DNA of 64,000 bases, taken from positions 4,559,001 through 4,623,000 of the forward strand of contig NZ_CP137573.1 in NCBI RefSeq assembly GCF_033343995.1, given 5' to 3'. Within the stretch, counting starts at the first letter, position 1. The number at the start of each line of letters is the position of its first letter. Positions 23,979 through 42,856 of this stretch are shown here, in pieces. A program made the position numbers and the translations under genes. The notes beneath the pieces were generated by a model, which made no database searches, was not told the DNA's origin, and saw only the letters and a list, made by a program, of their open reading frames with translations. Source of the DNA: Streptomyces sp. HUAS YS2 (GTDB taxonomy: Bacteria > Actinomycetota > Actinomycetes > Streptomycetales > Streptomycetaceae).

Positions 23979-24036
23979 ATGGGAACCCCCGCGGACCCTC
24001 CGGAAGCGCCGTACCCGCCTGCGTAGAGTGGCCCGC

Positions 24037-24645
24037 ATGTTCGTCAAAGTCTGCGGTCTGCGCACCGAGCCCGACGTCGACACCGCCGTCGAGGCCGGCG
24101 CCGACGCCATCGGTTTCGTCTTCGCCGAGAGCCCGCGCCGCATCGACGCCGACACCGCCCGCCGGCTCGCCGCGCGCGTGCCGGACGGGATCCTGACCGT
24201 CGGCGTCTTCCGCGACCAGCCGCTGGACGATGTACGGGACCTGGTCGAGGCGACCGGTGTGCGCGCCGTCCAGCTGCACGGCCACGAGGACCTCGGCTAC
24301 TTCGACGCCGTGCGCGCCTTCCTGCCCACCGGCCGGACCCTGATCCGCGCCGCGTCCGTACGTGACGAGGCCCCGCCCCACGGCGAGCGCGGCGAGGACG
24401 TCCTGCTCCTCGACGCGCCGGTCCCCGGCGCCGGCGAGACCTGGGACCTCACCGGAAAGCGGCTCCCGGGCCCCGACGTCCGCTGGCTCCTCGCCGGCGG
24501 ACTCACGCCGGCGAACGTCGGCGCGGCGATCCGGGCCGCCCGCCCCTGGGGCGTCGACGTCTCCAGCGGCATCGAGGCGAGCCGCGGCGTGAAGGACCCG
24601 GCACTGATCCGCGCCTTCCTGGCGGCGGCCCGCGCGGAGGCGTGA
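24037..24645 (+). CDS. trpF: Phosphoribosylanthranilate isomerase
   Basis: 202 aa from ATG 24037 (GTG 24028 adds three residues). TIM-barrel TrpF: VKVCGLRTEPDVDTAVEAG with catalytic Cys7 at the N terminus, DAIGFVFAESPRRI, VGVFRDQ, AVQLHGHED, and the phosphate loop LLAGGLTPANV with GVDVSSGIE at the C-terminal end (~res 150-185). It converts N-(5-phosphoribosyl)anthranilate to CdRP in tryptophan synthesis. Streptomyces usually rely on bifunctional PriA for this step, so a separate trpF is notable. No other trp gene is nearby. It shares its upstream gap with a regulon box. Confidence 0.93.
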   Translation: MFVKVCGLRTEPDVDTAVEAGADAIGFVFAESPRRIDADTARRLAARVPDGILTVGVFRDQPLDDVRDLVEATGVRAVQLHGHEDLGYFDAVRAFLPTGRTLIRAASVRDEAPPHGERGEDVLLLDAPVPGAGETWDLTGKRLPGPDVRWLLAGGLTPANVGAAIRAARPWGVDVSSGIEASRGVKDPALIRAFLAAARAEA

Positions 24646-24739: not shown

Positions 24740-27223
24740 GTGGATCAGTTGACCGGTGAAGACCCCACCCATATCGGCGCGTACCGCCTGATCGCCCGCC
24801 TCGGCGCCGGCGGGATGGGCCTGGTCTATCTGGGCCGCTCCGAAGGCGGCCGCACCGTGGCCGTCAAGGTCGTCCAGGCCGAGCACGCCGGGCACCCCGA
24901 GTTCCGCCGCCGCTTCGCCCGCGAGGTCGCCGCCGCGCGGCGGGTGGGCGGGGACTGGACGGCGGCCGTGCTCGACGCCGACCCCGAGGCGGCCGTGCCC
25001 TGGGTGGCGACCCAGTACATCCCGGGCCCCGACCTGACCACGGTGGTCGCCGAGGACTTCGGGCCGCTGCCCGAGCACTCGGTCCGGGTGCTCGCCAACC
25101 GGCTAGCCCTGGCGCTGCGGACCGTGCACGACGCGGGCCTGATCCACCGCGACCTCAAGCCGTCCAACGTCCTCGTCACCGTCGACGGCCCCCGCGTCAT
25201 CGACTTCGGCATCGCGCGCGCGATGGACAGCCTCGGCGGCGACAGCCTGCACACCCGTACCGGCATGCTGATCGGCTCGCCCGGCTTCATGTCGCCGGAG
25301 CAGGTCCGCGGCCTCGAACTCACCCCCGCGAGCGACGTGTTCTGCCTGGGCGCGGTCCTGGTGTACGCGGCGACCGGGCGGCTCCTGTTCGGCGCGACGG
25401 ACACCGGTCTGAGCGCGCACCTGTTCAAGATCGCCGAGGACGAGCCGGACCTGACCGGCGTACCGGGGACGCTGCTGCCGCTCGTACGGGAGTGCCTGCA
25501 GAAGGACCCTGCCCGGCGGCCCACCCCGGAGCAGATCGCCGAACTCACGGTGACGGACGCCACGGAGGAGTGGCTGCCCGGCGCGGTCCTCGCCCAACTC
25601 GGACGGCACGCCGCCCGGTTGCTGGACTACGCGCCGACGGACGCCGCCGTCCGGCCGCCCGCGACAGTGCCGGACGTACCGTCGGACCCGCGCATCGACC
25701 TCGCCAAGGCCGCCGCGCCCATGCCGCCCGCGTACGCGCCGACGGCCCCGGCGGGATTCGGCCCGCCGCAGGGCTTCGGCCCGCCGGCGGCGTACCCGTC
25801 CCCGCATCCCGACACCCCGGGCGCCGACCCCAGGCGCCGGCGGGGCCTGGTGGTGGCCGCGTTCGCGCAGTTCTCGGTCCTGTTCGCCACATTGGCGTTC
25901 GCCATGGCGATCCCGGAGATCCAGAGCGATCTGGGGCTCGGCTCCGTCAACCCGCTCTCCGGCCTCTACGCCCTTGCCTTCGGCGGGCTGCTCCTGCTCG
26001 GCGGGCATCTCGCGGACGTCCGCGGGGCCCGGCGGACGCTGACCATCGGCCTGGCCGGATACATCGCGGTCTCCGCGGTCGTCGGCTTCCTCCCCGACTC
26101 CACGACGATGCTCGTGGCCCGCGCCCTGCAGGGCGCCTCCGCCGCGCTGGTGGTGTCGGCGGGACTGTCCCTGGTGGTCGGGGGCTTCACGGACCCGAAG
26201 GAACGCGGCCGGGCCTTCGGCGTCTACGCCGCGGTCGCCGTCGGCGGCACGGTCCTCGCCATGACCGTGGGCGGTCTCCTCACCGAGTTCGTGGGCTGGC
26301 GCGTCGTGCTGCTCGCCGCCCTCCCGTTCGCCGTCACCGCGCTGATCCTCGCGCGCACGCTGCCGGCGGACGGCCCGAACCGCGTCCCGTTCGACATGGC
26401 CGGCACGCTGCTCGGCTGCGCCGGAATGCTGGCGCTCACCTACGGCGTCACGCTCGACGCCTTCGGCACCGGCACCGGCATGAGCGGGGGGCCGTCCCTG
26501 TTGACGGTGGTTCCTACCGTGGCGGGCATCGGTCTGCTCGCGGGCTTCCTGGTACGGCAGTTCACGATGCCGGGCGGCTTCGCCACCGGGTCCGAGGTCA
26601 GGACCGCCGACCGGGTGGGCGGTCTCGTGGGCCTGGTCATGGTCGGCGCCGCCGTCGCGGTGACGTTCTGGAGCCTGAGCATCCACCTGCAGCACGCCCT
26701 CGGCATGGCCCCGGTGGCGGCCGGGACCGCCCTCCTGCCCATGGCCGCCGCGCTCGCGATCGGCTGCTTCGTGGCCGCCCGTCTCGCGGACCGGGTCCCG
26801 CAGCGCGTGCCGGTCACCGGGGGCCTGGTCGCGGCGGCGCTCGGCCTGGCGCTGCTGACCCGGCTCGACGCGGGCAGCGGCGGGTACGTGGGCTGGGTCC
26901 TGCCCGGCTTGATCGTCGTGGGCCTCGGCGTCGGTCTCGCCCTCGGCCCGCTCCTCGACGTCGCGACCGCCGGCGTCCCCCTGCCGTTCGCGGGCTCGGC
27001 CGCGGCGACCGCCGTCGCGGCCCAGGGGATCGGCGAGACGATCGGCGGGGCGCTGCTGGCCAGTTCGCCCCCGGTGCTCTCGGAGCCGGACGGGAACGGT
27101 TACTACAGACTGCTGGGCCCCAGCCCCGTCCCCCTCTGGTGCGCCGCGGGCGCCCTGCTCGTCGCCGCCGTGGTGGCGGGCACGACCCTCACGAAGAGGC
27201 CCCCGGCGGGGGCGAACCGCTAG
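24740..27223 (+). CDS. Serine/threonine protein kinase fused to a 14-TM MFS transporter
   Basis: 827 aa from GTG 24740; the preceding TGGACT-like -10 suggests a leaderless message, and TTG 24722 is an alternative. Residues ~13-270 are a complete Hanks-type kinase: G-loop GAGGMG (22-27), K43 in [15 protein letters not shown] (~136), DFGIA (~155), SPEQ activation segment. A Pro/Gly-rich linker (~300-360) leads into a 14-helix DHA2/EmrB-like MFS domain (~370-820) with LADVRGARRTLTIGL and RALQGASAALVVSAGLS. One continuous frame, no internal stop. Usual kinases of this type have one TM helix and an outer sensor domain; here an exporter takes that place. The kinase may gate the transporter or sense its traffic. 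Confidence 0.94.
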   Translation: MDQLTGEDPTHIGAYRLIARLGAGGMGLVYLGRSEGGRTVAVKVVQAEHAGHPEFRRRFAREVAAARRVGGDWTAAVLDADPEAAVPWVATQYIPGPDLTTVVAEDFGPLPEHSVRVLANRLALALRTVHDAGLIHRDLKPSNVLVTVDGPRVIDFGIARAMDSLGGDSLHTRTGMLIGSPGFMSPEQVRGLELTPASDVFCLGAVLVYAATGRLLFGATDTGLSAHLFKIAEDEPDLTGVPGTLLPLVRECLQKDPARRPTPEQIAELTVTDATEEWLPGAVLAQLGRHAARLLDYAPTDAAVRPPATVPDVPSDPRIDLAKAAAPMPPAYAPTAPAGFGPPQGFGPPAAYPSPHPDTPGADPRRRRGLVVAAFAQFSVLFATLAFAMAIPEIQSDLGLGSVNPLSGLYALAFGGLLLLGGHLADVRGARRTLTIGLAGYIAVSAVVGFLPDSTTMLVARALQGASAALVVSAGLSLVVGGFTDPKERGRAFGVYAAVAVGGTVLAMTVGGLLTEFVGWRVVLLAALPFAVTALILARTLPADGPNRVPFDMAGTLLGCAGMLALTYGVTLDAFGTGTGMSGGPSLLTVVPTVAGIGLLAGFLVRQFTMPGGFATGSEVRTADRVGGLVGLVMVGAAVAVTFWSLSIHLQHALGMAPVAAGTALLPMAAALAIGCFVAARLADRVPQRVPVTGGLVAAALGLALLTRLDAGSGGYVGWVLPGLIVVGLGVGLALGPLLDVATAGVPLPFAGSAAATAVAAQGIGETIGGALLASSPPVLSEPDGNGYYRLLGPSPVPLWCAAGALLVAAVVAGTTLTKRPPAGANR

Positions 27224-40341: not shown

Positions 40342-40447
40342 GACACCCCGATCCGCCCCCGGGTTCGCAACCACCGCCCCGGACAGGAAGAATCAGGGTG
40401 CGACGGGGCCGTACTCTCATGGCCCGTACGGGGAGGTGGCAAGGCAA

Positions 40448-42856
<2,409 letters not shown>

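Follow-up and report, generated by a model that had tools for sequence, protein, structure and literature searches.

Why should a bacterial Ser/Thr kinase carry a whole transporter fold as its membrane half, and what could that half do for the kinase? The question is raised by one gene of the window, a stretch of 64,000 nucleotides that sits in the single-contig 7.88 Mb chromosome of Streptomyces sp. HUAS YS2. A sequence-only reading of this stretch had described a catalytically complete kinase fused to a 14-helix DHA2-like exporter, and had proposed that the transporter could be the sensor or the substrate of the kinase. In our analysis the fusion is best read as a receptor-type kinase of the AfsK subfamily or family, and its membrane half suggests an old pump turned into a receptor or a membrane anchor.

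Kinase, linker and transporter fold in one frame

The gene lies at positions 24740-27223 on the forward strand, as do all of its segments described below, and consists of an uninterrupted frame of 827 residues and a stop, as confirmed by the ORF check. Translation probably begins at the GTG at 24740, given that homologues open at the same residue with the same V-(D/E)-Q-L. Within this single frame, Pfam recognizes both Pkinase (PF00069; residues 15-268, 125 bits, cut-off 31.7) and MFS_1 (residues 374-769, 107 bits, cut-off 33.4), which bears out the proposed joining of a kinase to an MFS protein. A sequencing error joining two genes, the objection raised together with that proposal, can be dismissed, as about 20 relatives in other genomes are intact.

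The first 275 residues (24740-25564) form a cytosolic, AfsK-like kinase domain with all the hallmarks of a Hanks-type Ser/Thr kinase: the Gly-rich loop, the VAVK Lys, the alpha-C Glu, the HRDxKxxN and DFG motifs and an APE-like Glu. The Gly-rich loop, Lys43, Glu62, HRD (136-138), Lys140, Asn143, DFG (155-157) and the APE-like Glu are invariant in 22/22 aligned relatives, in agreement with the catalytic completeness, Lys43 included, claimed beforehand; the activation-loop Thr are T172/T174. The best NCBIfam match of this half is AfsK, with 288 bits over residues 1-269. The match covers model positions 1-264 only, and its score stays far below the cut-off of 1300 of the full-length model, which comprises kinase and PQQ propeller, so that the fusion does not belong to AfsK proper. 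The window also contains a true afsK as a gene of its own (40436-42856, forward strand; NCBIfam AfsK 1525 bits, cut-off 1300), which follows the fusion gene at a distance of about 13 kb on the downstream side.

The kinase domain is followed by a conserved helix, 'EWLPGAVLAQLGRHAARLLDYAP' (residues 276-300, 25565-25639), which is also found in non-fused sister kinases, and by a Pro-rich linker (residues 301-364, 25640-25831) that is predicted to be disordered, with pLDDT <50 over residues 285-362. The most conserved stretch of this otherwise fast-evolving linker is P-x-Y-x-P-T, which lies here within PPAYAPTAP (residues 329-337, 25724-25750): P330, Y332 and T335 are each kept in 20/22 aligned members and P334 in 22/22, Thr335 being present in 22/24 when counted by eye. 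The motif may be a phosphosite or a docking site, and with regard to the earlier idea of the transporter as substrate of the kinase, Thr335 is the candidate phosphosite. In one relative (L085) the linker has the motif P-P-x-Y-x-P-T-x-P twice, and the members without the linker Thr are L014 and L084, both with a damaged MFS half.

The remainder of the protein (residues 365-827, 25832-27220) is a degenerate DHA2/MFS membrane domain. In the AlphaFold2 model, 14 membrane helices in the MFS arrangement are predicted within residues 364-816, and among solved structures the nearest folds are those of the 14-TM DHA2 proteins EfpA, NorC and QacA (for EfpA, VIA-align Z 43.5, 453 residues aligned, rmsd 3.3), as anticipated from the sequence. 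The kinase half of the model is poor owing to the little kinase diversity in the alignment, and the relative placement of the domains was left out of use. On the DHA2/EmrB model TIGR00711 (cut-off 230.2) the window copy scores 75.8 bits and a slow-evolving relative, L077, 204 bits. The prediction of 14 helices extends to L034, which is among the two most diverged members (mean pLDDT 80, on an alignment that favours that fold).

Distribution and origin of the fusion

The phylogenetic profile of the fusion, suggested earlier as a check, was drawn with the kinase and linker as query. Across 81 Streptomyces genomes the outcome is bimodal: fusion-type kinases, at least 72% identical, are encoded by 19 genes in 17/81 genomes, and the remaining kinases reach at most 67% identity. 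This search, together with named species and one plasmid copy, makes up the total of 24 members considered here. Full-length fusions with 53-62% identity are present in many other genomes, and all relatives found are Streptomyces. No fusion appeared in the genomes of other genera sampled at E 1e-125 and 1e-95, cut-offs that unrelated kinase-MFS fusions could escape. The plasmid copy (L025, NZ_CP108116.1, 8001-9686) encodes a complete kinase with half an MFS, and its public annotation reads merely 'MFS transporter'.

The fusion kinases group in a single clade (SH-aLRT 100). The fused MFS halves likewise fall into one (SH-aLRT 100), and their sisters are the free DHA2 pumps L105-L107. Since both halves are monophyletic, one old fusion accounts for them, and a recent chance join is ruled out, each half being an old single clade. 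Small groups recur in the kinase and MFS trees (L011/L012/L013, L032/L034/L085 and L030/L081), a pattern that a shared history of the two halves since a single fusion would produce.

Regarding the genomic surroundings, seven fusion loci have a common neighbourhood from which the window locus differs, and no neighbour common to the window locus and other fusion loci was found that would define an operon or a partner gene. Just upstream of the fusion lies a trpF-like gene for a stand-alone phosphoribosylanthranilate isomerase (24028-24645, forward strand), which scores below the NCBIfam cut-offs; the gene itself is present in 1/20 relatives. In Streptomyces this isomerase step is usually carried out by PriA. 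An anti-phage defence role is unsupported: PADLOC matches the kinase domain, mostly as PD-T4-6-like, and no phage record has most of the fusion.

Residues lost and kept, and rates of evolution

The membrane halves of the 22 aligned fusions were compared with 38 stand-alone DHA2 proteins. The TM1 Asp is present in 38/38 of the stand-alone proteins and in 8/22 fusions; it is lost in 14/22 and replaced in the window copy by Ala383 (25886-25888). Three further residues are each retained in a single fusion (1/22): Trp405 (38/38 stand-alone; Pro here, 25952-25954), Asn527 of the F-(V/I)-N-(V/I)-P motif (35/38; Ala here, 26318-26320) and the TM13 residue Asn759 (36/38; Val here, 27014-27016). Additionally, Asn388 drops from 35/38 to 8/22, and Gln651 is partly lost (38/38 versus 10/22). 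With Ala383, Pro405, Ala527 and Val759, the window copy lacks the residues expected of a DHA2 proton-coupled exporter. Judging by phmmer coordinates, the TM1 Asp would correspond to QacA D34, and Asn759 would lie near E407. In QacA, D34 and E407 are needed for all substrates, and D34 interacts with R114 and Y63 (PMC10425836).

The losses in the fusion clade follow the fusion, because the sister free pumps L105-L107 retain all of the lost residues; W405, N527 and N759 look to have disappeared close to the root of that clade, and D383 later. The fusions keep motif A, with Gly421/Gly422, Asp426 and Gly429, as well as Arg489 and Asp552; conservation of 85% or more holds for G422, D426, G429, R489, D552 and about 85 further MFS columns. 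Motif-B Arg461 and Tyr410 are kept in most fusions, including the window copy.

Taken together, the fused MFS has probably been repurposed and no longer transports, and the word exporter in the earlier description becomes doubtful, the residues of proton-coupled export being mostly lost across the fusions. One alternative is a working exporter gated by its own kinase, which would phosphorylate the linker or the MFS loops. The retained DHA2 fold, motif A together with Arg461 and Tyr410 in the window copy, and the conserved linker Thr335 are what such a device would require. However, the absence of N527, N759 and W405 (each lost in 21/22) and of the TM1 Asp strikes sites that include the presumed counterparts of QacA D34/E407, essential there, and the fused halves diverge rapidly, unlike their free DHA2 relatives; we consider kinase-gated export quite improbable. 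Nevertheless, the eight members with the TM1 Asp, and Arg461 and Tyr410 in the window copy, make some transport possible, which counts against the receptor reading.

The halves of the protein evolve at very different rates. Averaged over pairs of members, the kinase is 86% identical and the post-kinase helix 82%; the linker stands at 43%, and the MFS at 49% for its N-half and 37% for its C-half, this last value being slightly low because pairs with two truncated members are included. Fifteen fusion-bearing genomes each encode an orthologue of the closest free DHA2; with the copy of genome G000 as reference, the remaining 14 are 84-92% identical to it. The kinase, the free DHA2 and the fused MFS could thus be compared by the same method in the same genomes. 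Over 91 genome pairs of similar dS (0.44-0.49), NG86 dN/dS is 0.18 for the kinase, 0.26 for the free DHA2 and 0.98 for the fused MFS, figures that are crude at about 93% GC3 and in which alignment error at 40% identity raises dN. On the reading favoured below, the kinase half has stayed under strong purifying selection.

A ratio near 1 in the fused MFS could also mean that this half is dispensable baggage in the course of being shed by an otherwise soluble-type kinase. In this regard, the MFS half is truncated or frameshifted in 4/24 members: L014 is damaged at both ends, L079 has one frame break, and L025 and L084 have half an MFS. The remaining 20/24 have an open MFS frame, for which the probability under drift is 0.01-0.2 per lineage. 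The helices of the fused MFS contain a mean of 8.3 charged residues, against 9.9 in free pumps and 17-40 expected under simulated neutral drift. Simulations of stops, charge and hydropathy therefore rule out neutral decay of the MFS half, and the comparison points to a fold, motif A and hydrophobic helices retained far better than drift would allow. Ongoing decay appears very improbable in view of these values, of the 14 helices still predicted in the long-diverged L034, and of a break in L079 that could have arisen lately or through faulty assembly, as it is single and the remainder is open. In L079 (locus G081:C1:1507000-1521000) the break lies inside the MFS, the remainder being open in another frame.

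The membrane half as a sensory module

The sister kinases, which make up one set of AfsK-like receptor kinases together with the fusion kinase, offer a frame for interpreting this pattern. In L002, L036 and L087 the second half reads as a single helix with an ectodomain, and in L035 and L057 as a multi-helix domain other than the MFS of the fusions; judging by these last two, Streptomyces kinases may often be equipped with polytopic sensor modules. At 80-91% kinase identity the C-terminal domains of the sisters are about 48-64% identical, with one example combining a kinase at 90% and a tail at 56%. As the sisters vary in their second half, and the tail diverges faster than the kinase, the MFS of the fusion occupies the sensor slot. 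The fused MFS would accordingly be evolving at a sensor-like rate, even faster than the sister tails. These features fit well with the earlier idea of the transporter as sensor, and we place slightly better than even confidence in a receptor kinase whose fused MFS, with its export residues lost, serves the kinase in cis as its sensor.

The findings allow us to propose how such a receptor may have arisen and may operate. In a single event, an ancestral kinase of Streptomyces and a DHA2 exporter, near to a free DHA2 subfamily that still exists, would have come together in one chain with a Pro-rich linker between them. The membrane half would then have lost the residues of proton-coupled export and retained its 14-helix fold, its hydrophobic helices and, on the cytosolic side, the gating loops of motif A. 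A small molecule, probably hydrophobic or cationic, bound in the cavity, or else a state of the membrane, would shift the conformation or the oligomeric state of the MFS. In a dimer-driven activation, this shift would alter the trans-autophosphorylation of the activation loop at T172/T174, and perhaps of the linker at Thr335, and consequently the phosphorylation of cytosolic targets.

The main rival is that the MFS serves as anchor or scaffold only, tethering and clustering the kinase at the membrane and leaving the signal to come from elsewhere. Residue-level constraint on the MFS is nearly absent, hydrophobicity being retained, and L025 and L084 combine an intact kinase with half an MFS, which implies that the full cavity is not always needed and counts against a sensor. 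The long, predicted disordered linker likewise argues against a rigid conformational coupling of MFS to kinase. Yet one helix would be enough for a tether, and most members keep a full-length MFS frame with the conserved motif A, Arg489, Asp552 and further columns described above; we therefore find a pure anchor unlikely.

Returning to the sensory reading, known systems resemble the fusion in part. The receptor kinases AfsK, PknB and PknD also have an N-terminal Hanks kinase followed by a membrane or repeat module, but the place taken in AfsK by a C-terminal PQQ propeller, and in PknB by one helix with PASTA repeats, is occupied in the fusion by a 14-helix MFS fold. The yeast proteins Snf3 and Rgt2 are of MFS origin. 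They act as membrane receptors for glucose, with 12 helices and a signalling tail in the cytosol (PMC10876965), and differ from the fusion in a tail without kinase, in helix number and in belonging to the unrelated sugar-porter branch. CbrA joins an SLC5 transporter, STAC and a histidine kinase in one chain as a nutrient-sensing transceptor (PMC13022988); it shares with the fusion the single chain of transporter and kinase, but its transporter is N-terminal and histidine transport is retained, whereas here a Hanks kinase precedes an MFS whose transport residues are lost.

The survey of prokaryotic Ser/Thr kinase architectures by Krupa and Srinivasan does not mention MFS, facilitator or permease (PMC1262709). 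The family TCDB 2.A.1.34, 'Sensor Kinase-MFS Fusion' (SK-MFS), has one member in the S. coelicolor/M. xanthus table, with substrate unknown (PMC3924187). By its name alone, this family would resemble the fusion in uniting kinase and MFS permease on a single chain, and its kinase may be histidine or Ser/Thr. Among the papers covered, our literature search found none on this kinase-MFS fusion, which agrees with the earlier remark that similar fusions are annotated in databases but have no described function.

If correct, the receptor reading would provide an instance, among bacterial Ser/Thr kinases, of a transporter converted into a receptor, and one whose evolution can be followed clearly through free pump relatives, a single fusion and the subsequent loss of proton-coupling residues. 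A broader proposal, which we hold only tentatively, is that these are Streptomyces-specific receptor Ser/Thr kinases whose retired exporter cavity has diversified by lineage, strains sensing different small molecules through the same kinase. Streptomyces make and meet many exported compounds, and through such receptors development or the production of antibiotics could be tied to drug-like molecules.

The DHA2 exporters EfpA, QacA and LfrA and the free Streptomyces proteins L067 and L105-L107 share with the fused half the 14-helix fold and motif A. The fused halves, at most 50% identical to the free L067 family, differ from them in lacking the cavity residues and the TM1 proton site, in their link to a kinase and in a dN/dS about four times higher. 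The slow-evolving members L077 and L027 and the free sister pumps form ready pairs for studying the passage from pump to receptor.
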